A stretch of 33,173 nt of DNA from an uncultured Anaerobiospirillum sp. (GTDB lineage: Bacteria; Pseudomonadota; Gammaproteobacteria; Enterobacterales; Succinivibrionaceae). The stretch spans positions 1 to 33,173 of the forward strand of contig CALXOW010000032.1 in NCBI GenBank assembly GCA_944390115.1, given 5' to 3'. Shown one piece after another: positions 6,371-28,150 of this stretch (the stretch's first letter is position 1; every line of letters starts with the position of its first letter). The notes below the pieces were generated by a model that saw only the letters and a list, made by a program, of their open reading frames with translations, ran no database searches and was not told the DNA's origin. The position numbers were made by a program, and so were the translations under genes.

Positions 6371-6871
6371 CTACATCATCGATTGGAGCTGCTCTAAGGT
6401 AGCGTTGAGCTCATCGATTTGCTTTTGCTTCTTGGCTAAAGCGGCCTTAGTCTTAGCCGAGCCCGTATTGCTCTTCTTTAAGGCCTCGATTTGCTCTTGA
6501 GCCTTGGTAATTTGGTCTTGCAGGTCGGAGCTCAGAGCCTTCTTCTGGGCCAGCTCGCCCTCTAAGGCGTAAAGCTCGCTTTGAGCGTGGTCGAGCAGGC
6601 GATTTTGCTCGGAGATCTGGCCCTTAACCAAAGCATCCTTAGCAAAGAGGTCACGCGCCAGCTGATTTAAGCGCTCATTCTCGGCCTTTAAGCTCTCAAC
6701 GCGTGCCTCGCGCTGCTCAATGCGCTCATCATAAGAGCCCGAGACCGTGCAGCCAATCTTGCCAAAAAAGCCTTGGTCTTGGCTTGGGTCACATTCTTCA
6801 GGGGTGGAAGCACAGGCGGTCAGCATCAGCGCGCAGCTCCCCACCAGGGCTAACTTCAAAGTCTTAATCAC
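6371..6871 (-). CDS. Coiled-coil lipoprotein, last gene of the cluster
   Basis: A 166-aa predicted lipoprotein. The start is a GTG at 6871, eight bases after AGAGGA, and gives a lipoprotein signal peptide ending LTAC with the lipid-accepting cysteine at residue 20. A start at ATG 6943 would bury the signal peptide and lacks these features. After a short Cys-containing segment (PEECDPSQ, GKIGC), the rest (~50-166) is heptad-rich, highly charged coiled coil. I do not recognise a named family; it is of the general small periplasmic-lipoprotein type. It lies downstream of another coiled-coil lipoprotein, across a 127-bp leader with a strong hairpin, so it may be expressed at a different level from the rest. 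Role inferred only from place: an envelope accessory of the Srf/Tag-like system. Confidence 0.72.
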   Translation of the reverse strand: MIKTLKLALVGSCALMLTACASTPEECDPSQDQGFFGKIGCTVSGSYDERIEQREARVESLKAENERLNQLARDLFAKDALVKGQISEQNRLLDHAQSELYALEGELAQKKALSSDLQDQITKAQEQIEALKKSNTGSAKTKAALAKKQKQIDELNATLEQLQSMM

Positions 6872-6895
6872 AACAAAATTCCTCTCACAAGCAAA

Positions 6896-6931
6896 GGCTT
6901 GCCCCTGGGGCAAAATGCCCTGAGGCAAGCC
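6896..6931 (-). promoter_or_regulatory. Stem-loop between the two lipoprotein genes
   Basis: GGCTTGCC (6896-6903) pairs with GGCAAGCC (6924-6931), and an inner GGGCA/TGCCC helix extends the stem. In the minus-strand transcript it lies ~25 bases upstream of the GTG start and just before its ribosome binding site. It is followed only by TTTGCTTG, so it could be a weak terminator, an attenuator or an mRNA-stabilising hairpin. Confidence 0.55.
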
Positions 6932-6998
6932 AAGGCGAACCAACCGTCCTAGGCCGGTCGCATCTGATCCCGTAAGTCTTAGCAGGCTGGACCTGGGG

Positions 6999-7754
6999 CT
7001 AAGCTTGGGCGGCGACTTGATCGTAGTTCTCTAAGCTCAGATTGAGCACATTGCGGTCCTCGGTGTAGCTGAGCATAGAACCACGGATTTGCTCAATGGC
7101 CTTCTCCAGCTGAGCGATCTGGCGGTCGCACTCACGCAGCTTGGCGCGGTCAGAATCAGAGTTGCCACCGTCGGCAGCAATACCCTTGCGGGCCTCTTGG
7201 TAGGAGGCCAATGCCTTCTCGTGGTAATCGAGGTTGCCTTGCAGCACTTCGATGTTGGCATCGTAGTAGGCAATGCGGTGCTCAATCTCAGCCTTTTGGG
7301 CCTTATGGCTCTTGATGTCCTTCTTTAAGGAAGCAAGCTTTGCTTTGTCCTCAGCATAGACTTGGTTGGCGGTCGCGGCCATATAAACGGCCTTTTGGCG
7401 ATCGTCCTCAAGCTTGGCGATCAGGGCATCGAGCTGCTGCTCCTTGGTGTGGTAGTTTTGGCGCAGGTTATCAAGCAAGGCATTGGAAGCCGCACCAATG
7501 GCGCAACCGGCCGCAGCTGCGGCGATGCAGGCTGCCTTTTGGTTGCCATCGGTAATTAAGAGGCACAGGCCACCTGAGACCAGAGCGCCGGTAGCGCAGG
7601 CGGTGACATAGGAGGTCCAGGAGACCGAGAAGTCATCGTTGACCAGACGTGGGTCTGGGTCGACGCCGCCCCACAAGGAAGAAGTTGATTGACAGCCGGA
7701 CAGGGCTAAAGCACCAATGAGAGCACTGGTAAGTAAGGTTACGCGCCAACGCAT
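6999..7754 (-). CDS. Predicted lipoprotein with Gly/Ala-rich segment and long coiled coil
   Basis: A 251-aa protein. The start at ATG 7754 is supported by GGAG seven bases upstream; a start at 7814 would place sequence before the signal peptide. The signal peptide ends in the lipobox LSGC (Cys21). Residues ~50-92 form a Gly/Ala/Cys-rich hydrophobic segment (TACATGALVSGG, AAAAAGCAIGAA), possibly a glycine-zipper-like or membrane-inserting hairpin. The remaining ~150 residues are predicted coiled coil. It follows the SrfA-like gene by 74 bp in the same direction. In Pseudomonas aeruginosa the TagR-TagS-TagT module works with the outer-membrane lipoprotein TagQ; this protein is a positional candidate for that role, but I cannot show homology. 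Likely an envelope lipoprotein of unknown precise function. Confidence 0.75.
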   Translation of the reverse strand: MRWRVTLLTSALIGALALSGCQSTSSLWGGVDPDPRLVNDDFSVSWTSYVTACATGALVSGGLCLLITDGNQKAACIAAAAAGCAIGAASNALLDNLRQNYHTKEQQLDALIAKLEDDRQKAVYMAATANQVYAEDKAKLASLKKDIKSHKAQKAEIEHRIAYYDANIEVLQGNLDYHEKALASYQEARKGIAADGGNSDSDRAKLRECDRQIAQLEKAIEQIRGSMLSYTEDRNVLNLSLENYDQVAAQA

Positions 7755-7828
7755 CGTACATCTCCAGGTAAAAAAAAGCGCAGCCACGGGCCAAGCCACC
7801 AAGCCCGCAAGCATACTAAGCGCCCAAA

Positions 7829-9838
7829 TTATTGGGCGTTATAAAACTGAATTGGGAAGCTATAAGAGCCGTAGTGGCCGGTGCAGCGCACTGTGCCATC
7901 GCCTTGCGGCTCGCATTTAACCTCAGGCATCCGATAAGACTTGCCATCTGGGCATACGGCATTGCCTTGGGTCGTGATATTCACGCCTGAGCCTGCCACC
8001 GTTGCCGCCGTCTGGGCCACGCACTTGACGCCATCTGGGCGGGTCACCGTGACCTGGCCCTGATCGCCCGAGAAACTATAGCCCAGTTGCAGTGGGGTAC
8101 CGGTCGCACGATCCATCAGGCCCGAGCGGGTATTCCAGGCACCGTTGAGCACGGACGAACCTTGCTGCGCCAGCGCCTGCTCATTGAAGTTTAAGCTATT
8201 CTCAGGCACAGCAGGCTGCGGCGGCACGACGCCGCTATTATTAGCAGCTGCCGCTTCGGCGGCACGCGCGGCCTCAATCGCAGCTTCCTGCTCTGGGGTT
8301 AAGCCCGGATTGGCCAGGGGATCAGGTTGGGTCTGCGGCATAGTTGGGTCAGATGGGGTCTGCGGCATATTTGGATCAGGTGGAGTCTGGGAACCCTGAG
8401 GCATGTTTGGCTCAGGAGGTACCTGAGCGCCCGGATCTTGCGGCATATTTGGGTCAAAGGCCTGGGCGGCCTGAGCCGCCTCCTCAAGCGCCTGCATCGT
8501 CTCAGGCGGCACTAACTCACCCGGCTGCGGCATCATAGGGTCGGCCGGTGGCACTTCACCGGAAAAGCCGGTCAGCGGCAGCTCACCTGAGCCAGCGACC
8601 GCTGGCATTTCACCTGCCGCATCTGGTACCGCGCCCGGTTCATTAAGCGGGATCTCACCTGATACCGCTGGCATTTCACCTGCCGCATCTGGTACCGCGC
8701 CCGGTTCATTAAGCGGGATCTCACCTGATACCGCTGGCAGTTCGCCACCGGTGCGATCAATGATCAGCGTCGAGCTCGAGTGGTCGGTATTGGAGACGGC
8801 GCTTGAATGATCGGAGCTGGAGCTCGAGTGATCTGAGCTGTGGGAGTAACTGGAGTGATCTGAGTTACTGGAATTGCTCGAGCTAGTGGAGCTCTCCGCG
8901 CCGTTTAAGGTAACAGTTGGATCGTTAGGATCCAAGTAGATGGCGTCGTTATTAGCACCTGGCAGTACCGGCTCCGCAGTTTCGAGAGGAGGAGCGGTAA
9001 GCGGCATTTCTTGCACTACGTCCGGGCCGTTTAAATTGGCGCTGGGAATCGCGACCTTAAAGCCAAAGAGCGAGGCCAGTAAACCCCACAGCCATGGCCA
9101 GAGCCACCATAATAAGAGCAAGAGTAAAAGGAGTAAGAGCAGCCCTAAGAGCCACATTGGCCAAGCTAAGAGGCAGCCTTTATTGCGCGAGCGATCTTCT
9201 TGCTGCGGTTCTTGCTGCGGCGGCACTGCCGCTTGCGCAGATCCCGAGGCAAAGCCCGCGCCCACGGTACCGGCGGCAGCCGCGCCATACGGCGGCACCG
9301 TACCCGCGCCCTTTAAGCTTGCAAAGGGACTTTGCTCCATCGGGGCGCCGTTTTTGGTAAAGCCCCAGAAGGTGATGACCGGCACGCCATCGACGATAAA
9401 GACGCAGTCATTGCTTGGGAAATGAATTGCCGGGAGCTGCTGCACCGAGTTTTGCCCAGTTAAGTAATGGGCAAAGAGCTGGCTGGTGCCTTGCGCCTGG
9501 TGATTGCCTAAGGCAACACCGACGCGCTTTAACACTTGCTCTAAGTGCCGAAGCTGACTGCGCGCTTGCTCCTGTTCTTGGGGCGTGGCCGCTTGCCAGG
9601 TGACAATGCGGTACTGTCCGTCCTCATTTTTTGGGGCAAAGGGGATATACCAGTCGATGGTATTGTTATCGGCGGCGATCTTAGGGCGCGCCAGGTGACG
9701 GGTGAGCTCAGGCCCCACCATCTTGTGGATATTCAAGGCCGCCAAAAAGGCCTCGGCATTGCGATACACCGGCTGGCCATCCTGGCCAATAGGCACGTAA
9801 TCTGAGATTTTGCCACTGTTCAAGAGCGCGTTTTGCAT
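7829..9838 (-). CDS. srfA: SrfA-like single-pass membrane protein
   Basis: A 669-aa protein whose N-terminal ~170 residues read like the SrfA family (YVPIGQDGQPVY at 14-25, DWYIPF at 62-67, VITFWGF at 154-160). One strong Trp/Leu-rich membrane segment spans about 222-257. It is followed by a ~300-residue low-complexity linker: a Ser/His/Asp-rich tract, two identical 22-residue Pro/Gly-rich repeats, then Pro/Met/Gln-rich sequence. The C-terminal ~110 residues form a compact, Cys-containing, beta-rich-looking domain (from SSVLNGAWNTRSG). The likely topology is cytoplasmic N-terminus and periplasmic C-terminus. It starts ten bases after the VWA gene stop, with GGGGAAG upstream. SrfA is the partner of SrfB and SrfC in Salmonella-type srfABC loci; here it is far downstream of srfB and srfC but in the same cluster. 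Biochemical role unknown. Family call moderately sure. Confidence 0.72.
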   Translation of the reverse strand: MQNALLNSGKISDYVPIGQDGQPVYRNAEAFLAALNIHKMVGPELTRHLARPKIAADNNTIDWYIPFAPKNEDGQYRIVTWQAATPQEQEQARSQLRHLEQVLKRVGVALGNHQAQGTSQLFAHYLTGQNSVQQLPAIHFPSNDCVFIVDGVPVITFWGFTKNGAPMEQSPFASLKGAGTVPPYGAAAAGTVGAGFASGSAQAAVPPQQEPQQEDRSRNKGCLLAWPMWLLGLLLLLLLLLLLWWLWPWLWGLLASLFGFKVAIPSANLNGPDVVQEMPLTAPPLETAEPVLPGANNDAIYLDPNDPTVTLNGAESSTSSSNSSNSDHSSYSHSSDHSSSSSDHSSAVSNTDHSSSTLIIDRTGGELPAVSGEIPLNEPGAVPDAAGEMPAVSGEIPLNEPGAVPDAAGEMPAVAGSGELPLTGFSGEVPPADPMMPQPGELVPPETMQALEEAAQAAQAFDPNMPQDPGAQVPPEPNMPQGSQTPPDPNMPQTPSDPTMPQTQPDPLANPGLTPEQEAAIEAARAAEAAAANNSGVVPPQPAVPENSLNFNEQALAQQGSSVLNGAWNTRSGLMDRATGTPLQLGYSFSGDQGQVTVTRPDGVKCVAQTAATVAGSGVNITTQGNAVCPDGKSYRMPEVKCEPQGDGTVRCTGHYGSYSFPIQFYNAQ
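8598..8729 (-). repeat. 66-bp perfect tandem duplication in the srfA-like gene
   Basis: Two identical 66-bp copies (8598-8663 and 8664-8729) are flanked by partial copies. Each encodes a 22-residue unit containing VSGEIPLNEPGAVPDAAGEM. DNA identity shows a very recent duplication that lengthens the periplasmic linker in frame. Confidence 0.92.
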
Positions 9839-9848
9839 GGCACTTCCC

Positions 9849-11471
9849 CTAATTGCAAACCTTGACTAAGCTCTGAGCCGCTTGCTTGAGCGATTTTACT
9901 AGCTCATGGGCATTTTCGGGGCGATAGACCTTGCCCCCAGTGATCTGCGCAATGCAGCGGGCACTCGCGGCCTCATCCCCGATCAAGACCACGTTGATTT
10001 TAAGCTTAGGCTTAGCCGCGTGAATCTCACGGGCTAAGCTGCACAAATCGGTATTGCGCGTATTGTTGCAGGTATCAAGACCATCGGAGATCAAGATACC
10101 GACCGCATCGTTATTGGTTCCGGCGACATTAGCCATACCCTTGAGCGCTGAGACTAAAGGCGTGAGCACTTGCAGCGGCCGTGGGCTTAAGAGCGGATTG
10201 GTCTGGGCAATTGCGCGCTGTAATGCCGCGCGATTATTGCCCGAGAAGGTACCGTAGTCACGCGCGAGCGGACAGCCCTGCATACCAAAGAGGCGAATCG
10301 GCACATTATGATCGACCGAGGAAACCACCTCAAAAGCCGCATCGATCGCCGCCTGAATGCGCAGCGAGCCGTCCGGCATAAAGTCGAGCATCGAGCCCGA
10401 GCCGTCAGTGGCCAAAATCAGCTGCGGCATCTTGCCTTGCGCGATGATAGTAGTGCACTTCGGCAGCTTGCTCTGCCCCGCCGTCACCTGCCCACTTAAA
10501 GCAGCAGGCGTAGTCGGCTCAGCTCCAGATGCGGTTGGCTCAGTCGAAGCAGACGGTTCAGTCGGCTCAGTCGAAGCAGACGGTTCAGTCGGCTCAGTCG
10601 GCACGACCGGCTCAGTTGCCGCCTGGTGCAGGGCTTCCTTATCTGCGACTTGATTTAACAGGTTGTGGATATCGACATAGTTGGTGCGTCGCTCCTCGAG
10701 CTCGCGATACAGGGCCGTCAGATCCTTTTGACGCTGATGCTCTAAGGCCGTATCAATGCTGGTATTAACCCGCCCTAACATACGGTTGATGTCGTGGAGC
10801 TGATATTGACGCTGTACCAGCTCTTGCTTAAGTGCGGCCAAATCATCTGAGCGCTGAGCGGCCGCTTGGCGCTCGTCCCACCAGTGCTGACCCCACAACA
10901 ACCACAGAGCCGCTAGGCCCAATAACAGCGCGAGTAATAACAGCCAGGGCCACCAGCGCCTACCACCTACAGCTGTCGCAGCGGCCGCTGCCGGGGCGAC
11001 CGGGGGCACGACGGGCTTGATGGTGAAGTTATGATCCCAAAAGGGCACGATGATCGGATCTTTATCCTCGAGCACGCTCAAGTACTGCGGCTGCTGCACC
11101 AAGGTCTTGAGCACTAAGGCCGCGCGCGCTTCAGGACTTAAATTTGGATCATCAAGACTAACGCTTTGGTCTTGTGGCAAATACGGCTGTAAGGCGGCAA
11201 ACCACTTTGCGCTGCGCTCCTCAAAATTGAGCTCAGCTACTTCTTGGCCTTTAAAAAAGAGCGGCTTACCCTCCAGGATCGGTGCCTCGCGCAGCGTGCC
11301 GCTTAGGGGCGTGACAAAGTTGAGGTAGTCCCCATCGCTCTCACAATTGGCGATGAGGCTCTTATCCTCGGGGCTGAGGGCCAAAGTACCCATCAGGCTT
11401 GCTAGCGCTGGCCGCACCTGCGACCACACGGGGGCGGCATCGGCGGCCGCTAAACGCTTGATGCGCAGCAT
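9849..11471 (-). CDS. Membrane-anchored VWA-domain protein
   Basis: A 540-aa protein with a cytoplasmic-looking N-terminal region (1-~160), one membrane helix (~173-194, WWPWLLLLALLL), a coiled coil (~203-280), a Thr/Glu/Pro/Ser linker that includes a 27-bp DNA repeat (EPTEPSAS twice), and a C-terminal von Willebrand A domain (~345-535). The metal-ion-dependent adhesion site is complete: DGSGS (D356, S358, S360), T437 and D463 in SDGLD. Cysteines (C339, C400, C468, C476 region, C539) could form disulfides, which fits a periplasmic VWA domain. The ATG at 11471 follows GGGAGGGAAA. It precedes the SrfA-like gene by ten bases, so the two are probably cotranslated. Its general layout (N-domain, Trp/Leu helix, low-complexity linker, periplasmic domain) resembles that of SrfA. 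Likely a metal-dependent protein-protein contact in the envelope. Confidence 0.82.
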   Translation of the reverse strand: MLRIKRLAAADAAPVWSQVRPALASLMGTLALSPEDKSLIANCESDGDYLNFVTPLSGTLREAPILEGKPLFFKGQEVAELNFEERSAKWFAALQPYLPQDQSVSLDDPNLSPEARAALVLKTLVQQPQYLSVLEDKDPIIVPFWDHNFTIKPVVPPVAPAAAAATAVGGRRWWPWLLLLALLLGLAALWLLWGQHWWDERQAAAQRSDDLAALKQELVQRQYQLHDINRMLGRVNTSIDTALEHQRQKDLTALYRELEERRTNYVDIHNLLNQVADKEALHQAATEPVVPTEPTEPSASTEPTEPSASTEPTASGAEPTTPAALSGQVTAGQSKLPKCTTIIAQGKMPQLILATDGSGSMLDFMPDGSLRIQAAIDAAFEVVSSVDHNVPIRLFGMQGCPLARDYGTFSGNNRAALQRAIAQTNPLLSPRPLQVLTPLVSALKGMANVAGTNNDAVGILISDGLDTCNNTRNTDLCSLAREIHAAKPKLKINVVLIGDEAASARCIAQITGGKVYRPENAHELVKSLKQAAQSLVKVCN

Positions 11472-11692: not shown

Positions 11693-13381
11693 CTATTGCT
11701 TTAAGGCGCGGCAGCGCTTGATCCAGCGGGCCTTGTTCTCATCCAAATTGCGGCTGCCACCGCGATAATCATGGACGTCAACCACGAATTGCTTGATGTA
11801 CTGCCCTAAGCTACCCGCATTTTGTCCTAAGGACTTCTGGGCGTTGTGGGTTTGGGCTACCACGAATTTGTAGTCAAAGGTCTCGGTGGTATCGGTGATG
11901 TGGTCGGCATAGTAGCTGACGTAGAAGTCGAGCATGTACTCGGCCAGCGCGCGATTGTGCTTGAGCTTTTCATCTTGGGCGGCGGTGGCCTTTTTGCACT
12001 CGTCGGAGTCAGCATCCGTGCGGCAAGCCGGAAGCGGAATGGAGCGGATCACCTCTTCGCTCTTTAAGGTGCGCTCATAGGAGATTTGTTCCGAGGCAAT
12101 GGTCGAGCACAGATAGCCGCCTAAGCGTAAGTTCGAGACGATGGCGCGATCGCGCATTTCATCGCGCTTGGCATTAGCCTCGACCATGCGCGCACGCAGA
12201 TCGGTGAGGTTGTGGCGCAGCTTATCGTAGGCCTTGCTCCACTCTTCCTTGTCTTGCTGATAGCGCTCTTGCGACTTCTTTTGCTCGGCGATGATCTTAT
12301 CGAGCTCAGCGACGGTATTGAGGTTACCGCCACCCTTTACATCCTCGGCATCGCTATCCTGACCTAGGGTCGCGACCTCTTTATTGAGCTCGCGCACCTC
12401 GGCAATCGAGGTGGTAAAAGGCAAGGCGAGAACCACGCGCATACCCAAGTCTCGTCCCGTGGTTTCCTTTTGGCGCGTGAAGTAAGCACGCTCGGAGCGA
12501 TAGGCTGTGACCATATCGCTTTGGGCACTGAGCACACTGCCGCCGCGCACGATAAAGCCACCACTTTGGCCGTGGAGACGCCCAGTGCGCGTAGCGTAGA
12601 ACGGGTCGAGCATGATTTCGCTGACATTGCCTAAGATGTCATAAAGGCCTAAGGGATTAGGCTCTTTTAAGCCAATCACGCGCACCTTACCGTCGGGGGC
12701 ACTGCCTTGACCCTTATACCAAGCGTAGTCGGCGATAGTCTTGCCCTGAGCTAAAGGAAAGGTCTCAGCACTAAATTGCGACGAAGTCACGGCATTGCCA
12801 CCGCGTGCGGCAAATTCCCACTCACTGTCGGTAGGCAGGCGCGCAAAGGCCACAGTCTTGCTCTCACTTTGGGGCAAGGTCAAACGGCCCTTGCTCTCGT
12901 CCACGGCTTTTTTGGCCGAAGGTGAGGCTAAGAAGGCAGAGAGATTTTTGGTGAGCTCAACCGCCTCAAACCAGGAGAGATTGCCTTGGGCCATGCGGTC
13001 TTTGACCGTGAGCTTACGCTCCTTAGGACATTTATTGGCGTTCTTTAATAATTGGGCCTGATAGGTGGTGAGCTCGTACTTACCGATGAGGTAGTAATAG
13101 CCCTCGCTATCGTGGAACGAGCCCTGAATATAGCGGTGGTTCGGGGCCTGGGCAATCAAGGCCTCGCCCTGGGTGCTACCGGCCATAAAGCCCTTATCTT
13201 GGAGCTTGGCGGCATTGGCGGTGTAGATCTTACGCAAGGCCATTTCACCGCCGCACGGCAGCGGAATGATCACATCATCGGCGGCTGGCTTGGGATTGAA
13301 GGCTGCGGCGCTATCTGCAGCCTGGACTGGAGTTAACAAAAATGGGCTGACCAAGGTCAGGGCGAGCAGTAAGCGGCGCAT
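11693..13381 (-). CDS. tagR: TagR-like periplasmic SUMF1-fold protein
   Basis: A 562-aa secreted protein with a Sec signal peptide ending PVQA (~21). The stretch FNPKPAADDVIIPLPCGG (28-45) and the following formylglycine-generating-enzyme-like (SUMF1) fold match my memory of TagR, the periplasmic activator of the T6SS kinase PpkA. Fold landmarks are RLPTDSEWEFAARGG (181-195), GLYDILGN (245-252), RGGS (279-282) and GMRVV (313-317). No sulfatase is nearby, so true formylglycine synthesis is unlikely. After the fold comes a ~110-residue coiled coil (~330-440) and a Cys-containing C-terminal region. The ATG at 13381 directly follows the permease stop, with GAGGGAGG upstream, indicating translational coupling. 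In Pseudomonas, TagR acts with the lipoprotein TagQ and the TagST transporter to relay an envelope signal. Confidence 0.82.
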   Translation of the reverse strand: MRRLLLALTLVSPFLLTPVQAADSAAAFNPKPAADDVIIPLPCGGEMALRKIYTANAAKLQDKGFMAGSTQGEALIAQAPNHRYIQGSFHDSEGYYYLIGKYELTTYQAQLLKNANKCPKERKLTVKDRMAQGNLSWFEAVELTKNLSAFLASPSAKKAVDESKGRLTLPQSESKTVAFARLPTDSEWEFAARGGNAVTSSQFSAETFPLAQGKTIADYAWYKGQGSAPDGKVRVIGLKEPNPLGLYDILGNVSEIMLDPFYATRTGRLHGQSGGFIVRGGSVLSAQSDMVTAYRSERAYFTRQKETTGRDLGMRVVLALPFTTSIAEVRELNKEVATLGQDSDAEDVKGGGNLNTVAELDKIIAEQKKSQERYQQDKEEWSKAYDKLRHNLTDLRARMVEANAKRDEMRDRAIVSNLRLGGYLCSTIASEQISYERTLKSEEVIRSIPLPACRTDADSDECKKATAAQDEKLKHNRALAEYMLDFYVSYYADHITDTTETFDYKFVVAQTHNAQKSLGQNAGSLGQYIKQFVVDVHDYRGGSRNLDENKARWIKRCRALKQ

Positions 13382-14578
13382 TTAGGCCTCCCTCAAAATG
13401 TCGGCAATATGGGCCTTTAAGAAGACGAACTTGGCACAGGACAGCGCAATCAGCTCAACTAAAAGCAAGGTCGCGCCAAAGAAGAGCGTAATATGCTCAT
13501 AGGTCAAATCGGAAATCATGGAGCCGTTTAAGATGGTGCCAAAATAGGTGTTAAAGATACCCGCGCCGATGCTATAGAGCGTAAGCGCCAAGGCAAAGCC
13601 CACGGTGGCAATGAACAAACCTTCGATCATGACCACGCCATAAATGCCGGTACTACCTTGCCCCATTAAGCGCAAGAGCACGAAATTGCGCTTGCTCGCG
13701 CGCAGGGCCGATAAAACTAAACCGGTTAAAGCTAAGGCGCCACCTGCCACCGACACCAAGGCGATCACACCATAGATGAAGTTTAAGACATGGGATACGG
13801 CCTTGAGGTTTTGAATCTCGCGCACCTTGGAGCTGACGTTTAAGTTCTGATTGACCAAGTAGTAATAAAGCGGAATGACGCTTGCCAAATCTTTAGCGTA
13901 CAGACGGAATTTAGCGTAGAGGCGCGGCTGGGTGTTGACCTTGCTGCCATCGGAGAGCAGCACCGGGTTATAGCCATTGCGATAGTCGTCGATGGCGTTG
14001 ACCAGATCGAGATTTAACAACAGGCAATCGTCGTTGACAAAGCGCTCCTCGACAATACCGCGCAGCTTAAGGGAAGTGCGCACGCTCTCGCGTACCCCAT
14101 TTCTCGTACGGGACACCACCATCGTCACCACGTCGCCGACCTTAAGGCCACGCAGCTGGGCTAAATTGTAGGAAATAAAGGCCTCATCTGAACCTAAAGG
14201 TTGCTCAAAGCTTAAATTGGAGCTTAAGACCACCGGATCACCGGGCTTGGTCGGCAGCACTGAGATACGCACCGCCGCCCCTGGGAACTTGAGATCAACT
14301 AAGGCGTTTAAGGCGGTGATCTGCGGCACGACAAAGCCCACTTCTGGGCGCGCCGCTAAATTTTCAAAGAAGGAGGAATCCAAGCGATAGGACATATCCA
14401 AGGTCAAGGACAGAACCTTGGGATCATTCATGAGCTTGTTGTGCAGCTCGGTCAAGATGCCAAAGCGCAATGAGAACAAGAGCAACAGCGGCGCCATAAT
14501 GCAGGCTAAGGCTGCAATCTGGCAGATAGTCATCATGCGTTCAAAGAACAGATGGCGCAAGGCAAGTTTAAACAGCAT
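13382..14578 (-). CDS. tagS: TagS-like FtsX-family ABC permease
   Basis: A 398-aa inner-membrane protein with FtsX/MacB topology: one N-terminal helix (~16-42), a large periplasmic domain (~45-260), then three C-terminal helices (~264-292, 314-342, 363-386). Such permeases usually transmit mechanical force across the membrane or extract lipoproteins rather than import solutes. Its reading frame overlaps the ABC ATPase upstream by 11 bases and has GAGG eight bases before the ATG, so the two are cotranslated. It is followed with no gap by the TagR-like gene. The ATPase-permease-SUMF1 order is the same adjacency as tagT-tagS-tagR in the Pseudomonas T6SS regulatory locus, which is why I prefer TagS over a generic LolC/MacB-type permease. 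Identity of the periplasmic domain is not verified. Confidence 0.8.
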   Translation of the reverse strand: MLFKLALRHLFFERMMTICQIAALACIMAPLLLLFSLRFGILTELHNKLMNDPKVLSLTLDMSYRLDSSFFENLAARPEVGFVVPQITALNALVDLKFPGAAVRISVLPTKPGDPVVLSSNLSFEQPLGSDEAFISYNLAQLRGLKVGDVVTMVVSRTRNGVRESVRTSLKLRGIVEERFVNDDCLLLNLDLVNAIDDYRNGYNPVLLSDGSKVNTQPRLYAKFRLYAKDLASVIPLYYYLVNQNLNVSSKVREIQNLKAVSHVLNFIYGVIALVSVAGGALALTGLVLSALRASKRNFVLLRLMGQGSTGIYGVVMIEGLFIATVGFALALTLYSIGAGIFNTYFGTILNGSMISDLTYEHITLFFGATLLLVELIALSCAKFVFLKAHIADILREA

Positions 14579-16334: not shown

Positions 16335-16366
16335 CGCTTACCCACCCACTATCACACACACTAGAT

Positions 16367-16395
16367 ATTATAGCGCTTCCGCATGCAGACGGGAA
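16367..16395 (-). promoter_or_regulatory. Candidate promoter for the tagT-like gene at the edge of the MITE-like element
   Basis: A perfect TATAAT (complement of 16367-16372) lies just outside the left inverted end of the inserted element. The -35 position (16390-16395, TTCCCG on the minus strand, 17-bp spacing) falls inside the element's inverted end. The -35 match is poor. Confidence 0.4.
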
Positions 16396-16547
16396 AATTT
16401 TAGTTGAGCTAGGCAGCTTGCTAAGATGGTGACAAGAAGGTGATTTTTATCAGGAATCTTGTTGTTCCAAATCTTCAGCTTGGCACTGTTAGGGGCTGCA
16501 ACGACTAGCTCACACCAAATTTTCCCGTCTACATGGCGCTTCCGCAT
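16373..16547. mobile_element. MITE-like element with 29-bp inverted ends
   Basis: Left end 16384-16412 and right end 16505-16533 are inverted copies of each other over 29 bases with about five mismatches (outer part AGACGGGAAAATTT, inner part GAGCTAG). The 12-bp sequence GCGCTTCCGCAT occurs in direct orientation at 16373-16384 and 16536-16547, as a target-site duplication would. The ~90-bp interior is AT-richer than the neighbours and has no reading frame. The right direct repeat touches the stop codon of the VWA gene. This fits a non-autonomous transposable element; I cannot name a parent transposase. Transcribed from the minus strand it would fold as a long hairpin. Confidence 0.7.
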
Positions 16548-18517: not shown

Positions 18518-18529
18518 GATGCGCCCTCC

Positions 18530-19657: not shown

Positions 19658-22600
19658 TACTTCAGCTCCTCCATGGCCTGTAAGATCGCGCACAGCAAGA
19701 AGTTTTCTTCACTTGAGAACTGATATTTGCTCTGCACCGAGACGTTAACTTGGCACATCATATACCCTAAGGTCGCGGCAAAGTCACTTAAGAACTTGAA
19801 CTCATAGCCCGCCGAAACCGCATCTAAATGCGGCAAGAGGCCGGTCTCATCCAAGGTGCAAGTCCGACTAAAGACCGTGTGGTCTTCACGCTTAGGGTCA
19901 TAGCGCACCATGCCTTGTTCCTTCACAAAGCAATTTACTGGCCCCTCGGCCGTGCCTAACACCGACTGTCCCGCCGAAAGCTCAAAGCCGGTATCGGCCG
20001 CAGCAGCAACCTGAGCAACCGCTGCTGCTGCCACCGGGCGCACGGGAGCAGGCGCAGGAGCAGCAGAAGCCGCAGGAGCACCGAAATTGTTTTCGTCGTC
20101 GAGCCCGGCCAAATCCGAGAAGTCATCTAAGTCGTCCTCGCCGCCGAACACCGGAGCAGCAACCGGAGTCGCCGCAGCAGCAACCTGGGCCGTCTGAACC
20201 GCTGCGGCCTGAACCTCAGTCTTGGCGCTATTAAGCTCATTTAAGGCGGCCTTATTGGGCAGCAAGTTAGCGCCCAAATAGAGGTTGAACTCGCTTAACA
20301 TCTGGGACATGAGCTCGACTTGCAGGCGCAAGATATCGCCCAAGCCCTCAGTGGTGTTTTCGCGGGCACGCAGTACGCGCATCAAGTGGCCCTTTAAGCC
20401 CACTTGTGGCGATCTAAAGGTCTTGCCGATTTCATCGAAGATGCGGTTAAAGAGCGCGACCACATCACCCTTGAGCTCCTCGGCGCTCTTAAAGCGCTGC
20501 TCCACAGCGTTGTAGCACAGCGAGAAAGCGACCATACTCTTAGGGTCGGCCTCGAGATTGGAGCGCACGCGCTCGAAGTTTAAGACCACGAGATCTGCAA
20601 TCTGATTTAAGGCGACGTGATCTTTACGGCTTAAGTCCTCGAGGCGATCTTCGTATTCCTCGCACACGGCGGTGACAAAGCGCGCGACATTAGAGCCGGT
20701 GGCAAAGCCCTCTTGGTAGAGCTCTTCAAGACGTCCCTCGTCGATCTCCACCAAGCGGCGCAGTAAGTCAAAGCATGGGGCCAGGGCGTTGCATTGCAAC
20801 AGGCCTAAAGCCAGCTCCCGGCTTAAGGCCTTAGCCTCATCGAGCTTTTGGGCACTATCGCGCGTAGCAAATGGGCTTAACTCCTCGATGCACTTTTGCA
20901 CCGCGTGCTTGGCCTTAGCGGTACGTGCCGAGATGCGCAGCTCCGGGCTTTGCGCGCCTTGCTTAATCAGGGCGGTAATGGCGCTGACACCACCATCGTT
21001 TAAGGCCAGCAAGGCATCAAGTGCCGCCGGTAAATTAACGATATGCTGAGCAAATTCCGGCACCGCACACAAAGCGGCCTTGATTTGCTCAATCCCAGCT
21101 TGCGCCGACGACTTAATCCCCAATTCGTTATTCTGGGCATCACACTCGAGCCATGGGTTGAGGTCGCCGAGTTTTGGCTTTCTGGCAAGCAGTACTCGAT
21201 TGAACGGCTGGCCCTTAGTCCACTCATTGAACCAATTGAGCTTTTGGATACGGTTTAAGGCGATATTGAGCTCTTGGTTCATATCCAAAGGCAGACCTGA
21301 GCTCAAATTGCGCAACTGGCGGTTAAAGACCTCATCGTAGCGGGTCAAAATGATGGTGAGCGGATTGTAGACACCGGCACGCTTTTCTGGGGTCTTGCCC
21401 ACATTGTTTTCGACCCAGTCGGACAAAATGGTGAGCACCGAGGTAACGTCTTGCTGAGCGTTGACGCCAATGCAGAAGAGCAGCTGGTCGATTTCGTTAC
21501 GGCGCGAGTAGCGCTCGAAGAGATAGGCGACCTTACCACGGCGGAAAAATTCGCTACCGCGCATCTGGAAGGCCTCGGACAAGGAGGCAGGAGCTTGCCC
21601 CGGCGTAAAGGACGCGCCATCGTCCTTGACGTCAGTGAGCAGCACTACGTCGCGCGAGCGCGCCCCCGGCAAGTCAAGCACGTCAAAGTCATCAAGTGGC
21701 CCTGAGCTCTCAAGGAAGAAACTGAGCTCCAAGGACAGGGCAGCCAAACGCGAGGTATTAACCGCAACCGGCACCACTGAGTCCCCAGACACCAAGGCGC
21801 ACGATAAGGTCGAGCTGTCGCTGAACATGGTGCTGAGCTTGGTGATGTGCATGATGGTGCCCGCAGCGTTTTGCTTTAAGGAGCTGTCCGGCTGCACCGT
21901 GACAAAGGCTTCCTTCGGGGCATAGACCCATTGGTGGCCCTGCAGCAGCAAGAGCTCGGAGGCCAGGACGCGATAGGTCTCAGAGAAGATCGGCAGTTCC
22001 TGCCAGAAAATCGAGAGCGCCTTAATGCGGCCATCCAAGGTCATAAAAGGCAGCATGCTGCGCAGCTTGCCCCACAGGCGCGGCATTTCGTCGCAACCTG
22101 AAACCTTACCATTGGAGTTTTGCTTGACGTAGTCGGCAAGTTCCACTACCTGCGCCGGGCTAATGTAATTGACCTCAGTTACGCCAGCCACGCAAACCGT
22201 ACGCCCAGGGTAACAAGAGCCCAAAGAATCAGAGCCCTGGGCCAGGCTCTGGGCCTGTTCGGGCTGATAGCGCAGAAACTCGGCGCGCGCCTTAGTATCG
22301 ACCAAGGACTCCAACGAGGAGAGCTTACTTAAGTACTCGTCTTCAGAGGTTGGAACCTTAACGTCGCTTTGGTTGATATCGTAGAAGAAGGCGTTAATTA
22401 AGATCATGCCGAGCTCAAGCTCATGCAAGACCTTAAGCTCAATTGGGAAGCCTGGTGGGCACGAGGTGGCGCGGTGGGTAAAGCGCGTGGCAAAGCCGGT
22501 GGCCTCGGAGTTATTGCCCGACGGATTGACGTGGCGGATAAAGTCGACTTCGGCGCCATCCCAATGGGTCGACAAAACCCCACTACTGCCAGCGGCCAAG

Positions 22601-22827
22601 GTCGAGACCAAGTAGCTCTTACCTGCTTGCGAGGCACCGAACAGGCCAATGGTCGGGCGCGCCGCGACGTTGCTCGCGCTGTAATTTAATAAATTGGCCG
22701 AGCGCTCTAACCTGACGGTTAAGTCGGCACTCTTTTCCCCTAACTCAGGGGCTACCCCTTGATTGCGCTCCACCCAAGTGCTGCCCCATGCAGCGGCCTT
22801 GGTGGCATTAACTAATTGTGCGTGCAT
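19657..22827 (-). CDS. srfC: SrfC-like P-loop GTPase
   Basis: A 1056-aa cytoplasmic protein with no signal peptide or membrane helix. Nucleotide-binding signs: Walker A GASQAGKS (64-71), a switch-II-like DLPGA (385-389) after a hydrophobic strand (FDVL), and TRYD (495-498) after a hydrophobic strand (LTIIL), a plausible G4-type base-specificity motif. The spacing is that of a large, insert-rich GTPase resembling the bacterial virulence factor SrfC family. The middle region (~640-880) is long and helical. An Ala/Pro-rich linker (~890-960) leads to a ~100-residue C-terminal domain (from FELSAGQSVLG). It follows the SrfB-like gene across a 10-bp repeat array and is coupled by TAATG to the membrane protein downstream. 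AGGA precedes the ATG at 22827. In srfABC loci SrfC is always next to SrfB, as here. Exact activity of the family is not established. Confidence 0.83.
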   Translation of the reverse strand: MHAQLVNATKAAAWGSTWVERNQGVAPELGEKSADLTVRLERSANLLNYSASNVAARPTIGLFGASQAGKSYLVSTLAAGSSGVLSTHWDGAEVDFIRHVNPSGNNSEATGFATRFTHRATSCPPGFPIELKVLHELELGMILINAFFYDINQSDVKVPTSEDEYLSKLSSLESLVDTKARAEFLRYQPEQAQSLAQGSDSLGSCYPGRTVCVAGVTEVNYISPAQVVELADYVKQNSNGKVSGCDEMPRLWGKLRSMLPFMTLDGRIKALSIFWQELPIFSETYRVLASELLLLQGHQWVYAPKEAFVTVQPDSSLKQNAAGTIMHITKLSTMFSDSSTLSCALVSGDSVVPVAVNTSRLAALSLELSFFLESSGPLDDFDVLDLPGARSRDVVLLTDVKDDGASFTPGQAPASLSEAFQMRGSEFFRRGKVAYLFERYSRRNEIDQLLFCIGVNAQQDVTSVLTILSDWVENNVGKTPEKRAGVYNPLTIILTRYDEVFNRQLRNLSSGLPLDMNQELNIALNRIQKLNWFNEWTKGQPFNRVLLARKPKLGDLNPWLECDAQNNELGIKSSAQAGIEQIKAALCAVPEFAQHIVNLPAALDALLALNDGGVSAITALIKQGAQSPELRISARTAKAKHAVQKCIEELSPFATRDSAQKLDEAKALSRELALGLLQCNALAPCFDLLRRLVEIDEGRLEELYQEGFATGSNVARFVTAVCEEYEDRLEDLSRKDHVALNQIADLVVLNFERVRSNLEADPKSMVAFSLCYNAVEQRFKSAEELKGDVVALFNRIFDEIGKTFRSPQVGLKGHLMRVLRARENTTEGLGDILRLQVELMSQMLSEFNLYLGANLLPNKAALNELNSAKTEVQAAAVQTAQVAAAATPVAAPVFGGEDDLDDFSDLAGLDDENNFGAPAASAAPAPAPVRPVAAAAVAQVAAAADTGFELSAGQSVLGTAEGPVNCFVKEQGMVRYDPKREDHTVFSRTCTLDETGLLPHLDAVSAGYEFKFLSDFAATLGYMMCQVNVSVQSKYQFSSEENFLLCAILQAMEELK

Positions 22828-22865
22828 AAAGAAGCCATCCTGTGATGACGCCCCAGCCCTAAGGG

Positions 22866-22980
22866 CTCAACCGAGCCCAACCAGGCTCAACCGAGCTCAA
22901 CCGAGCCGAACTGGGACCAACTGAGCCCAACTGGGACCAACATAGCCCAACCGAGCCCAACCAGGCTCAACCGAGCCCAC
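22866..22980. repeat. 10-bp tandem repeat between srfB and srfC
   Basis: Eleven consecutive 10-bp units run from 22866 to 22975, with a half unit to 22980. The commonest unit is CTCAACCGAG (CTCGGTTGAG on the coding strand), variants being CCCAACCAGG, CCGAACTGGG and ACCAACTGAG. The period is exact over all units. Each consensus unit has complementary ends (CTC/GAG), so neighbouring units can also pair in RNA. The array fills most of the 188-bp spacer. Confidence 0.92.
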
Positions 22981-23015
22981 AGCCCCGGGCGGGGCGTCCA
23001 TTAAAAGGGAAAAAA

Positions 23016-26000
23016 TTACAAACGCTGACGTGGATTGAGGCCGCTTAAGTTGATCGAGCCTGAATCCATGAAGTACTTGATGTGCGCTCCCGAAATGGTC
23101 TTGAGGTACATCTTGAAGTACGGCGTGTAATCACGGCCATCGTCTGAGACCACCGACTCAAGCTGGAAGGTCTCAACCTGCTTTAAGCGCGGCAAATTGC
23201 GCTTGATAAAGGCCAGAGGATATGGCGAGTGGCGGTTGACCGTCTTCAAGGTCACGGCAAATTGCACGCGATCGACGTTGAGCTTGTGCAGTAATTGCTC
23301 AAAGCCAGCCTTATAGCGGGCGCGCACCGTGGCGATATTGCGGGTCAAGGCGTCAGTGAGGTAATTGTTGAGGCCATCCTCGAGCTCTTGGCGCTTAGTG
23401 TCCAGCTCAGCATTGAAGACCGTGAGCACCGCCGCGTTATAGCGCTCTTGGTAGAGCGAGCTAATCAGGGCCTGACGCTCAGCAGCGAGCTTATCCTTAT
23501 TGGCAAAGAGGCCCTTTAAGCCGGTCGGCTGCTCAATCTTGCTATCAGCCTCAGCCGTCACAGCGCTGAGCAAGGCCTGCTCGAGCTCATTCTTGCGCCC
23601 TTGCAGCACCGTCTCCAAGTTCTCAAGTTGATCTAAGTAAGACTCCGCCCCGGCCTTAACCTCAGCTTGGAGCTCAAAGTCGAGCTCATCCACGAAGTTT
23701 TTGACCGACTCGCGATCGATATCGCGGAAGGTTAAGGAGAGCGCCTTACGTACCGAATGAATCTCATCGACGTTATCTAAGGCCTCAATCTTAAAGAGCG
23801 GGGTCGCCTCGACCGTTGGGTCGTCAAGCAGGCGAAAGCCCAGCTCGACCGAGAGCTGCGTCTTAAAGGCCTCATCGGCACGCCCCACCGCCACAAAGTT
23901 CGAGTCTTCATCGTCCTCAGAGCTTTGGTTTTGGCGCGCCACCATGCGGGCAGAATCATAGCGATAGAGCACCGACTCAGGGCTGATGATATTGCTATTG
24001 TCGATAATACCGACATAGTGGGCGCTGTTGGTGACTTCGGCCGGATACGAGTAGAAGCGGAAGTTCGGGAACTTGTCGTGGGACAGGCGCAGATAGCATA
24101 AGAGCGCGCCCACGGCGGCGGTGGTCTTAGGGTCACCGATGAACTCGCCGTCATGCTGGAATGGGTACCACGACTCGCAGCGATAGCGGTGCATTGGGAT
24201 AATGCGCGAGCTTGGGATATTGAGGCGCTGCAAGAAGAAGGAGTAAATACCTGGCAGCTTAGAGCAACGGCCGGTGAGCAGCACCAAGTCGCATTGATAG
24301 ACCGTGAGCACCTCGGCCATCTTGGTTAAGATGCGGCAGATGTTAAAGCGGCTGCCCTCAACCAAGGCGCGGTTGATCTTCGCGATATCGAAGCTGAAGC
24401 GATAGTCCATAATCGAGAAATTAGGGACGTACGGCTTAATCAAATTGTCAGCGTAAGCGATGACCTCGGCGCTCGGCAGATCATACGGGCCCATACGCTT
24501 GATGGTCGGCGCCAGCTGCGGATTGACTTCCTGGTCGAGCAGGAAATCACGCACTGAGCCCTTGACCACGCACGATGGGGCGTACGGATCTAAGTTCTCA
24601 AGATGGAACAAGATCTTGTAGGCAATGCGCACCAGAATCTGCTGGGTAAATTGCGAGCGCAGCATCTCAGTGCGCACATTACCCGTGGTGCCATCGCCCA
24701 CCAGCTGCTGCAAGATCGGCTTGAAGTTGACGCGCGCCGTAGCCAAGGAATAGGACAGGCGCGTCATGATGCACTCACGAATGATATCGTGCACTAAGTC
24801 GTCACCTGCGATCTTAAAGCCGTCCTTATAAATCTCCAGCGGCCGAATATCGTCCTCATAGGAGGCGACGTCCCGCCGGAAGGTATAGTCCTTGATCACC
24901 AAGTCAGTAGTGCCACCACCGATATCAAGCGAGGCGATACGGGCGCTGTGCAGGGCCATGCCCTCGCCATCGAGCAAACGCTCGCCGATGCGCGTACCCA
25001 CCGAGGCCCGGCGCAGGCCCGCGATAAAGGCCTTGCAGTCACCTTGGTAGGTCTTTTGGCTCTCGTTGTAGAGATAAACGACCTGACCTGCTTCGGCCTC
25101 ATTCCAATCAAGGTAAACCTCAGGAATCGGCAGCGCCAGCAACGAATTATCCGAGGAAGCGCCAAAAGCGAACTCTTGGGCCGGACTCAAATCAAGGCCC
25201 AGGCTCTTCCAGAGAATGCCTAAAGCCTCATAGACGCAGGCGCGGTAGAGCTCGCGCTCTTCAGCGGGCATCGAAGGCGGCGTGGTCAGAATAATGGCCT
25301 TTAAGCGGCGTGGAGTATTCTTGGAGGTGCACTGCTGGCGCTGACTTAAGGAGTTCATCTGCACCATGGCCTGCAAGAAGATTTCGATCAGCATAAAGGT
25401 CATGGTGGAGCGATTGGAGTAGCACGACTCAAGGTTATCGTAAACCATATCGTCGGCGTCCAAGGCAAAGTAAGCCTTACCCTCAGTGTTGAAGTAGCTG
25501 CCGACGCTATTTAAGTAAGCGCGGTCGGTCTGGCCCTTTAAGGCCGCCTGCAACTTGGGGCTAGCAATCTGATAGGAGTAATTGTTAAAGACCCAACGGT
25601 CGTTGGTCAGCGGCTGGACATTCCACAGATAGCGCTTCGGCGAGGTTAAACCCGAAGTACCCTCATTGCCGTGGCGGTGCGAGGCCAAATTGCTCGCCTC
25701 GGTGCCCACGCGCACCATCGACGGCCAGCTAAAGGCGTCCGAGCGGCCCGAGCGCGCGGAGCGATTGTCGTAATCGAAGTTCGGGCGGGCAAACTCAATG
25801 CGGCTGACAAAGGCCTCGGAATAGACACGCTCGGGGGCGTTGAGGTCACGCAGCACCAGGCCATAGGTGTCCTTGAAGTCATCGTCGCCGCGTGTGGCAT
25901 TGGGATGGTCTTCAACCATGATGCCGCAGGAGCGGGCGTTGCCAATGTCCAGAATCAAGGAGACATTGACCATCTTGGATGAGGCGTATTCTGAAGCCGA

Positions 26001-26912
26001 GAAGGAGGCGTCAGCGGCGGTGTGATTGGCGATAAAGTGCACCGCCTGTGGCTTAACCATAAAGCCCATAAAGGCGAGCACGTTAAGGTAATGGGCCTCA
26101 TGGGCATGGTCGCGTACCACCGCCTCATTTAAGAGCTCATCGAGCATGCGCGGCTCACAGCGCTCTTGGTAGAGGTCGCGAAATACCGACTCCGCCCACT
26201 CGCGCACCCACGGCAGCGCCCCCGGACGATTCTTTAAGAATGGTTGGCAGCGGTCAGCGGTATAAGCAAGCTTAAAGCGTACGCCCGACTCGACGTCGCG
26301 CGCGGTCGGAGCCAAATATCCGTTGACGTCATCGGCGCTCAAAGTAGGTTGAGTCTTAGTGTCAAAGGCGACCACGATGCGGTAGTAAGCCTTAGTCGGC
26401 TTGCGCTTAATCGGGGTACCGGTCGGCCCTATCATCTCACCGCCCAAGCAATCGGACACCACCTCCGACGCATCTAAGCCATGGGCGACGCAATAGCGCG
26501 AGATCACCTTAGGATCGTCGACCTTGACGATGCGGGCGCGCGCCCAATTGAGCGGTCCGTACTGATTTTGGTTGATATGGTCAGGCAGATACGGCAGCGG
26601 GAACCAGACGCCATCGTAGAGCTCGAGCGACTGCTTGAGCGCAATGGCGTAAGTGGCGTTGATGGGATCGACCGTGCGCTCATTGATCGGGTCGACATAG
26701 ATCACCTCAGAGGTAATCTTAGGTACGAGGCGCACCAAGGGCTCATTTTGGGCGGCGGCAAAGCGCACAAAGTAGCCCGTTTCAATGGCCTTGATGACAC
26801 TGAGATCATCCTTACACTTGAAGTCCAGCAAAACATCGTAGTCGATAAACTGAACTCCCGAGTTTTGCACCAACTCAATATTGCCGTCTAGCGGCACCAC
26901 TTCAGGATACAT
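23016..26912 (-). CDS. srfB: SrfB-like actin/Hsp70-fold ATPase
   Basis: A 1298-aa protein, first gene of the cluster. I start it at ATG 26912 (GGGAG and GTGGGG upstream); 18 further residues to 26966 are possible but not family-like. The actin/Hsp70/sugar-kinase ATP-binding motifs are present in order: phosphate-1 DIGNARSCG (from D322), phosphate-2 DIGGGTTDL (from D663), and adenosine motif LLTGRCSKLPG (878-888). Other stretches (FDYDNRSARSGRSDAFSWPS, TSPKRYLW) fit the SrfB virulence-factor family as I remember it. A ~320-residue N-terminal region precedes the ATPase, and a coiled-coil-containing C-terminal region (~1080-1200) follows. No signal peptide or membrane helix is seen, so it should be cytoplasmic. 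Likely an ATP-dependent partner of the SrfC GTPase; family function is poorly defined. The stop is followed by a U-rich stretch without a clear hairpin. Confidence 0.87.
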   Translation of the reverse strand: MYPEVVPLDGNIELVQNSGVQFIDYDVLLDFKCKDDLSVIKAIETGYFVRFAAAQNEPLVRLVPKITSEVIYVDPINERTVDPINATYAIALKQSLELYDGVWFPLPYLPDHINQNQYGPLNWARARIVKVDDPKVISRYCVAHGLDASEVVSDCLGGEMIGPTGTPIKRKPTKAYYRIVVAFDTKTQPTLSADDVNGYLAPTARDVESGVRFKLAYTADRCQPFLKNRPGALPWVREWAESVFRDLYQERCEPRMLDELLNEAVVRDHAHEAHYLNVLAFMGFMVKPQAVHFIANHTAADASFSASEYASSKMVNVSLILDIGNARSCGIMVEDHPNATRGDDDFKDTYGLVLRDLNAPERVYSEAFVSRIEFARPNFDYDNRSARSGRSDAFSWPSMVRVGTEASNLASHRHGNEGTSGLTSPKRYLWNVQPLTNDRWVFNNYSYQIASPKLQAALKGQTDRAYLNSVGSYFNTEGKAYFALDADDMVYDNLESCYSNRSTMTFMLIEIFLQAMVQMNSLSQRQQCTSKNTPRRLKAIILTTPPSMPAEERELYRACVYEALGILWKSLGLDLSPAQEFAFGASSDNSLLALPIPEVYLDWNEAEAGQVVYLYNESQKTYQGDCKAFIAGLRRASVGTRIGERLLDGEGMALHSARIASLDIGGGTTDLVIKDYTFRRDVASYEDDIRPLEIYKDGFKIAGDDLVHDIIRECIMTRLSYSLATARVNFKPILQQLVGDGTTGNVRTEMLRSQFTQQILVRIAYKILFHLENLDPYAPSCVVKGSVRDFLLDQEVNPQLAPTIKRMGPYDLPSAEVIAYADNLIKPYVPNFSIMDYRFSFDIAKINRALVEGSRFNICRILTKMAEVLTVYQCDLVLLTGRCSKLPGIYSFFLQRLNIPSSRIIPMHRYRCESWYPFQHDGEFIGDPKTTAAVGALLCYLRLSHDKFPNFRFYSYPAEVTNSAHYVGIIDNSNIISPESVLYRYDSARMVARQNQSSEDDEDSNFVAVGRADEAFKTQLSVELGFRLLDDPTVEATPLFKIEALDNVDEIHSVRKALSLTFRDIDRESVKNFVDELDFELQAEVKAGAESYLDQLENLETVLQGRKNELEQALLSAVTAEADSKIEQPTGLKGLFANKDKLAAERQALISSLYQERYNAAVLTVFNAELDTKRQELEDGLNNYLTDALTRNIATVRARYKAGFEQLLHKLNVDRVQFAVTLKTVNRHSPYPLAFIKRNLPRLKQVETFQLESVVSDDGRDYTPYFKMYLKTISGAHIKYFMDSGSINLSGLNPRQRL

Positions 26913-28119: not shown

Positions 28120-28150
28120 CTCAAAAAATTACATAGATACAACATCAAGG

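Follow-up and report, generated by a model that had tools for sequence, protein, structure and literature searches.

The closest described systems to the locus presented here are the TagQRST-PpkA set of the type VI secretion system (T6SS) and the SrfABC proteins of Salmonella and Xenorhabdus; what is said of the cited papers refers to the parts of them that were covered. TagQRST-PpkA of the T6SS responds to outer-membrane damage, and the signal perceived by TagQRST has been described as unknown (PMC11881912). SrfB and SrfC are labelled 'virulence factor' without having a settled function. A Salmonella srfC mutant swarms poorly (PMC4219756), and the Xenorhabdus Srf proteins are reported to bind each other in a heteromeric complex (PMC6950479). 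A srfABC-tagQRST-ppkA neighbourhood in host-associated Deltaproteobacteria, mostly without T6SS machinery, was printed in 2013 (PMC3608642) and the Srf and Tag combination was mentioned again in 2019 (PMC6950479), so the combination is not new. Here we analyse a DNA stretch of 33,173 nucleotides (the window) from an uncultured Anaerobiospirillum sp. of the Succinivibrionaceae, which is contig C32 of an assembly with 3.64 Mb in 123 contigs, and in which SrfA, SrfB and SrfC relatives stand together with a Tag set that includes a TagQ homologue.

Composition of the locus

As given in the initial annotation of this DNA, eleven long open reading frames (ORFs), all on the minus strand, span positions 6371-26912. 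From 26912 down to 6371 their order is as follows, with P, V2, V1 and E as our own labels, VWA standing for von Willebrand factor A and TM for transmembrane.

23016..26912, minus strand: SrfB, candidate actin/Hsp70-like ATPase (PF07520, motifs; ATG at 26912, the ORF opening at TTG 26966)
19657..22827, minus strand: SrfC, putative dynamin-like GTPase (PF10139, G1-G4 residues, AlphaFold model of a relative)
18530..19657, minus strand: P, predicted inner beta-sandwich domain, one TM helix and a periplasmic helical Sel1-like domain with 4 invariant Cys (alignment, model of a relative, TM scan)
16547..18517, minus strand: V2, predicted exported VWA protein, homologue of the post-kinase part of PpkA without the kinase domain (PF00092, alignment, PpkA match)
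14568..16334, minus strand: TagT homologue, ABC ATPase with a 588 aa frame (ABC_tran, motif residues)
13382..14578, minus strand: TagS homologue, FtsX/MacB-like permease (alignment, match to T6SS TagS, FtsX below cut-off)
11693..13381, minus strand: TagR homologue, SUMF1-fold protein that lacks the catalytic Cys pair (PF03781, alignment with T6SS TagR)
9849..11471, minus strand: V1, second VWA protein, with a predicted inner domain common to SrfA, TM 176-194, then the VWA part with invariant Cys (alignment, hhalign, TM scan)
7829..9838, minus strand: SrfA, with a predicted inner domain, TM 228-246 and a C-terminal domain with 4 invariant Cys (NF040486, alignment, TM scan)
6999..7814, minus strand: TagQ homologue, with lipoprotein signal LSGC, a stretch rich in small residues and a coiled coil (hidden Markov model matches, hhalign)
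6371..6943, minus strand: E, second lipoprotein (LTAC by eye) with a coiled coil, paralogue of the TagQ homologue (hhalign; accompanies the set in relatives)

The tight spacing described for these genes follows from the coordinates: the stop codon of SrfC and the start ATG of P share bases at 19657 (TAATG), the TagT and TagS frames overlap by 11 bases at 14568-14578, and TagS and TagR adjoin with zero gap (13382/13381).

Homology of the Tag set with that of the T6SS

Family profiles made from the window proteins together with relatives served to annotate loci. A search of 148 Pseudomonadaceae genomes with V2 gave two classes. One, of 14 genomes, scored 981-1067 bits, the frame being 658-834 residues long in 11 and longer in 3; the other, of 17 genomes, scored 546-574 bits, and its frames had 1012-1189 residues in 16 genomes and 756 in 1. 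Ten T6SS loci were taken, nine from the second class and one from a weaker match in G451. Nine of the ten have the order PpkA-TagT-TagS-TagR-TagQ with TssK, TssL or TssM nearby, and the other (L266) has PpkA and TssM with no TagRSTQ in the stretch. In the nine Pseudomonadaceae loci our profiles matched, in the same order, at 168-181 bits for TagT, 304-344 for TagS and 257-286 for TagR, which bears out the three Tag homologues first proposed.

That inventory was incomplete, having missed TagQ. The profile of the window gene at 6999-7814 matches the TagQ position of nine T6SS loci at 36-48 bits, and its hhalign comparison with TagQ gives a probability of 98.4 and E 8.5e-15 over 187 columns; with this gene as the TagQ homologue the Tag set is complete. 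Translation probably starts at the internal ATG of MRWRVTLL. The gene lies apart from TagR in the window and adjoins TagR in most relatives, and E matches it by hhalign (probability 97.6, E 3e-12). Judged by sequence, the T6SS sensor set is homologous to the window set, in the same order and with TagQ included.

TagT matches ABC_tran (E 3.1e-18), and its Walker A Lys, Walker B DE and H-loop His are intact in 86/86 aligned Srf-linked rows. Its long frame in the window recurs at 438-603 aa in seven related loci (L151-L153, L155-L157, L186), the Srf-linked median being 242 aa. LolD is its best NCBIfam match, at 104.5 bits and far under the equivalog cut-off of 307.75. TagS reaches FtsX at E 1.8e-4, under the cut-off, and T6SS TagS has FtsX and MacB_PCD domains. 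TagR matches the FGE-sulfatase family (PF03781, E 3.0e-24). FGE/SUMF1 enzymes have a catalytic Cys pair behind an RGGS motif, and no Cys is found there in the window TagR or in four T6SS TagR rows. Two tandem FGE-domain proteins are also encoded on contig C58 of the same genome (G000; L067:1886-4647); that contig also encodes an RNB-domain protein, and the stretch has no genes resembling Tag.

In the TagS tree, the Srf-linked (SH-aLRT 89), T6SS-linked (100) and stand-alone (98; see below) proteins each fall on one side of a branch, which argues for old, stable partnerships. The trees were made by a quick method without bootstrap from 23 or 24 of 95 Srf-linked stretches, which include split halves and some genomes twice.

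VWA proteins and the absence of a kinase

V2 carries a VWA domain (PF00092, E 1.2e-5, 26 bits against a cut-off of 23.8) and aligns with the portion of T6SS PpkA behind the kinase (model positions about 16-24 to 657), in agreement with the periplasmic-half PpkA match reported initially. The median frame of Srf-linked V2 starts at the start of the V2 model, and the longest extension is 239 residues (L048). A PpkA-kinase profile built from the ten T6SS loci, and for that reason found in 10/10 of them, had zero matches in the 95 Srf-linked or 14 stand-alone stretches. Pfam Pkinase, which is matched at E 1.2e-49 to 8.9e-48 by the three T6SS PpkA scanned, was found in none of the window proteins scanned, in line with the initial annotation. 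The view of the 2013 paper that PpkA is the kinase of the Srf-Tag neighbourhood does not hold for the loci examined here, which include no Deltaproteobacteria. Some Klebsiella plasmids label V2 a serine/threonine protein kinase, a label to which the V2 sequence gives no support.

V1 matched no Pfam model at E<=0.01, and an alignment of nine V1 proteins has invariant DxSxS, Thr and DG positions. It has a domain, predicted to be cytoplasmic, in common with SrfA (hhalign). The structure of P was taken from a model of a relative (L224:8955-10004), and its C-terminal domain is common to stand-alone P-like proteins (hhalign). VWA genes are locally duplicated in some loci: V1 occurs four times in L189 and three times in L194, and V2 three times in L154.

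SrfB, SrfC and SrfA

The SrfB, SrfC and SrfA identities of the initial annotation were all recovered above cut-off. SrfB matches PF07520 at E 3.1e-227 (757.5 bits, cut-off 27.1). Actin/Hsp70-like ATPases have two phosphate motifs and an adenosine motif; in Srf-linked SrfB homologues the phosphate motif is kept in 84/84 and the strict adenosine-motif pattern in 62/84, and an alignment of 20 rows has invariant positions in LDxGN-R, DIGGGT-DL and LTGR-S--P. These motifs make SrfB a candidate actin/Hsp70-like ATPase; a PDB profile search with SrfB gave no match.

SrfC matches PF10139 (E 5.4e-126, 422.4 bits, cut-off 28.1) and conserves the GTPase residues G1, G2 Thr, G3 and G4. An AlphaFold model of a relative 26% identical to it (L224:6222-8951; pLDDT 82, pTM 0.73) matches dynamins: it has the dynamin fold, a GTPase with a helical bundle made from the N- and C-terminal parts, and the alignments run from the N-terminal to the last helix. 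A sequence-profile search of SrfC against solved dynamins found none at E<=10. From the predicted fold of this relative, SrfC looks like a dynamin-like GTPase. In the titles and abstracts of open-licence PMC articles we found nothing pairing a SrfC protein with dynamin. The TM scan found no hydrophobic export segment in the window SrfB and SrfC; SrfC of L224 has one borderline segment at 330-348. SrfA, matching NF040486 at E 4.1e-64 (217.6 bits, cut-off 150), is predicted to be membrane-anchored. On the plasmid pKPN-065 (L114) the gene ahead of SrfA bears the label 'tellurite resistance domain protein'.

Conservation and distribution

Named genomes were scanned with V2 as query and the best 80 of 355 relatives were kept, among which the nearest V2 is from an uncultured Anaerobiospirillum and is 99% identical. 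With a near-copy of the window (L150) left out, 78 named loci and the window make up 79 loci. All eleven families are present in 63/79 and lie on one strand in 62/63, which contradicts the chance adjacency named at the outset as one way for the association to fail. Among the 16 incomplete loci, 13 end at most about 1.1 kb past the last gene found. Two orders recur: A-B-C-P-V2-T-S-R-Q-E-V1, at times with V1 first or duplicated, mostly outside the Succinivibrionaceae, and B-C-P-V2-T-S-R-V1-A-Q-E in the Succinivibrionaceae, including the window. Carriers include Gilliamella, Pasteurella, Aggregatibacter, Proteus, Taylorella, Pseudomonas, Stutzerimonas, Azotobacter and Ketobacter.

Even samples of the order and the class are less biased than the V2-query scan. 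In the order sample (148 genomes) SrfB was found in 19, and 11 of these have V2 beside SrfB-SrfC (G000, G275, G390, G403, G416, G363, G297, G401, G339, G357, G388), the stretch of G416 ending after V2 and that of G275 within TagS. Five of the 19 have SrfABC without an adjoining Tag set, two, from the window's own family, have SrfABC next to other genes, and one locus is broken. The class sample (274 genomes) had 7 genomes above the SrfB cut-off, of which 4 also had V2 at >850 bits, one of them (G013) split over two contigs. V2 matches were found in 125 plasmid records, 114 of them from Klebsiella; the cluster was seen on both enterobacterial plasmids opened (pENTE01, pKPN-065), and a Cereibacter plasmid carries SrfB to TagR. 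These observations support a Srf-Tag link that is old and stable and not a local chance. Mirror correlations over loci still contain species-tree signal.

Other SrfB-containing stretches were seen as well. In L031 and L033, from the window's family, SrfABC is followed by several long genes without an informative Pfam match among those scanned, possibly another Srf partner module. A decayed srf locus in G414 (L273) has a broken srfB and a srfA remnant. L051 and L052 have SrfB-like genes with no SrfC in the stretch, that of L051 lying beside an AMP-binding enzyme.

T6SS genes and other contexts of the Tag module

The initial annotation found no T6SS genes, which is correct for the window (no T6SS family among the proteins scanned) and not for the genome. 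The same assembly encodes TssC (PF05943) on contig C94, with neighbours read by eye as TssB and Hcp, and TssK, an IcmF N-terminal domain, DotU, a ClpB-type ATPase, TssG, TssF, gp25 and a VgrG-like protein on contig C42. The genome has a single V2 match and a single TagS match, both in the window. A search for T6SS genes in the 79 loci (<=22 kb each) gave two weak matches only, the TssL query reaching 13-19 bits even in true T6SS loci. Among 72 carrier genomes TssC was found in 38 and gave no match in 34, a survey of T6SS-lacking carriers that the initial annotation had called for; absence is provisional in draft genomes, and the T6SS queries came from one genome. At least five pairs among the 72 are the same or nearly the same genome, and after deduplication 35 have TssC and 32 do not. 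Carriers without a TssC match include the single-contig genomes G363, G401 and G136 and also Stutzerimonas stutzeri 95A6 (L220, G597), while the carrier Azotobacter vinelandii (L225) does have TssC.

Besides the Srf-linked and T6SS-linked loci, a third context was found in 14 stretches from class genomes, which have V2 (574-631 bits), TagT and TagS without TagR or Srf, and in which the only T6SS-gene match was one weak TssM-like fragment (L098). A P-like gene is found in 7/14 at E<=0.001 and in 13/14 at a lax threshold; these proteins are without the inner domain of P and have the predicted periplasmic helical domain in common with it (probability 97.7, E 1.6e-12). The open-licence PMC titles and abstracts on TagS and TagT contain no description of such a stand-alone V2-TagT-TagS module. 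In a fourth type, seen in Azospirillum and G134, V2-T-S-R-Q is accompanied by an E-like gene, with no SrfB or SrfC nearby. Given these contexts, the periplasmic VWA-ABC core is a module that is joined to several different cytoplasmic ends. In the short-form loci L271 and L272 an ABC ATPase match of 139-142 bits lies away from Srf.

Other features of the window

The eleven-gene set is flanked on one side by genes for tyrosyl-tRNA synthetase and ribose-5-phosphate isomerase and on the other by a tRNA-Leu and two LptF/LptG-type genes, near which a Sel1-repeat protein is encoded on the plus strand (32300-33115). Upstream of srfB, at 27092-28178, there is an excess of terminator-like sites, mostly on the minus strand (13 versus 2.7 in shuffles over 26500-28800). 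An Eco57I-like N6 DNA methylase (993 aa), which carries a long insert of low complexity, is encoded at 417-3398, with no restriction gene among the window proteins scanned.

Proposed function and alternatives

The observation that opened this work is confirmed and the composition of the locus is well supported, while the first interpretation, of a sensor shared with the T6SS and wired to a Srf NTPase machine spanning both membranes, is partly supported: homology and order speak for the shared sensor, and the wiring and the spanning we infer. We give an even chance to the proposal that the Tag sensor and a SrfB/SrfC output form one envelope-spanning machine without a kinase. On the sensing side would be the two lipoproteins (TagQ homologue and E), a periplasmic TagR and the two VWA proteins; by analogy with TagQRST-PpkA of the T6SS, this periplasmic half may sense a disturbance. 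TagST, as a MacB/FtsX-type ABC unit, would carry an ATP-driven conformational change across the inner membrane. SrfA, V1 and P, each with a single predicted pass, would keep the domain that precedes the TM helix on the inner side and their Cys-bearing domain on the outer side, and would connect to SrfB and SrfC. Since no kinase was found, signalling would rely on direct contact; in the simplest case TagST and SrfA, V1 and P would relay the signal to SrfB/SrfC, whose output would take the place of threonine phosphorylation. A disturbance of the outer envelope would thus make the sensor recruit or switch SrfB/SrfC at the inner membrane, and the membrane would be tethered or remodelled at the disturbed site; a dynamin-like output points to tethering, fusion or fission. 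The swarming defect in Salmonella and the Srf-Srf binding in Xenorhabdus both fit a surface or envelope function. Some points weigh against this proposal. The V2-query scan favours the full set, three incomplete loci have room to spare (L154, with 5.3 kb, V2 repeated and no TagT or TagS; L155, with 2.3 kb; L166, with 3.1 kb and no Q or E), and Srf-linked V2 and TagR need two changes in their trees, caused by the long-branched L115 (Cereibacter).

In Xenorhabdus, lysates with SrfABC and the purified proteins are harmful to insect and mammalian cells and T6SS-control genes adjoin srfABC (PMC6950479), and PpkA-triggered export of SrfC was proposed in 2013 (PMC3608642), all of which would suit a secreted three-part cytotoxin whose export is controlled or driven by the Tag genes. 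However, SrfB and SrfC carry NTPase motifs and lack a hydrophobic export segment in the window, SrfA has a predicted membrane anchor, V2 is kinase-free and the set is retained in Gilliamella, Azotobacter and Stutzerimonas, and we consider a toxin unlikely. Improbable too, in our estimate, is an ABC exporter or a lipoprotein or adhesin sorting device of the LolCDE/MacB type, with SrfB/SrfC as chaperone or GTPase for the cargo. The LolD match of TagT, although far under its cut-off, and the FtsX and MacB_PCD domains of T6SS TagS speak for it, but in Pseudomonas TagST has been assigned to the sensor module of the T6SS (PMC6657622), and no constant cargo gene was seen, though only the eleven families and T6SS genes were looked for.

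Perhaps the locus is instead a relocated T6SS control module that still serves its own T6SS in trans, as the T6SS genes of this genome and its single V2 and TagS matches in the window would allow. The 34 carriers without a TssC match, among them the three single-contig genomes, the lack of a kinase, the near absence of T6SS genes from the 79 loci and the separate TagS branch make this very unlikely. That two unrelated gene sets lie side by side by chance has next to no probability: SrfABC, T6SS-linked Tag and stand-alone V2-TagTS do each exist separately, but the eleven families occur together in most of the 79 loci, and 11 of the 19 SrfB genomes of the order sample have V2 beside SrfB-SrfC.

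Extending the proposal of a kinase-free Tag-Srf machine, we tentatively suggest, as a possibility we would not call probable, that TagQRST-VWA is a swappable periplasmic sensor, which through a kinase would lead to T6SS firing and through SrfA, V1 and P would make SrfB/SrfC seal or tether damaged membrane, so that Srf would be a widespread damage-repair machine rather than a virulence factor. If SrfC proves to be a dynamin with the Tag set as its sensor, Srf function and the TagQRST signal become testable in harmless T6SS-free bacteria, with sensing apart from firing. Because bacteria of the gut, the bee gut and soil as well as Klebsiella plasmids carry the set, a known function would replace much vague annotation.

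Comparison with known systems

The Deltaproteobacterial neighbourhood (PMC3608642) likewise groups srfB, srfC, tagQ, tagR, tagS and tagT with a PpkA-like gene. That paper discusses a threonine kinase role for the PpkA-like gene and an effector role for SrfC, whereas here V2 is kinase-free and SrfC looks dynamin-like; a second VWA protein and a second lipoprotein, present here, are unnamed in the parts of that paper covered. With TagQRST-PpkA of the Pseudomonas H1-type T6SS the locus has in common TagT, TagS, TagR, TagQ and the post-kinase part of PpkA, and most Srf-linked loci keep the order V2-T-S-R-Q. It differs in having no kinase, SrfA, SrfB, SrfC, P, E and V1 instead, its own TagS branch and a place outside a T6SS cluster, and in the window V1 and SrfA stand between TagR and TagQ.

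The SrfA, SrfB and SrfC families are those of Salmonella and Xenorhabdus SrfABC, but the A-B-C order is absent from the window, where SrfA lies behind V1 and not ahead of SrfB. Compared with LolCDE transporters, TagT falls short of the LolD equivalog score (104.5 versus 307.75 bits). Bacterial dynamin-like proteins (SynDLP, BDLP, the Campylobacter DLP pair, IniA, LeoA) resemble SrfC in their GTPase motifs and in its predicted fold; SrfC has no sequence-level match to these proteins, and the partner conserved with it is SrfB instead of another dynamin.
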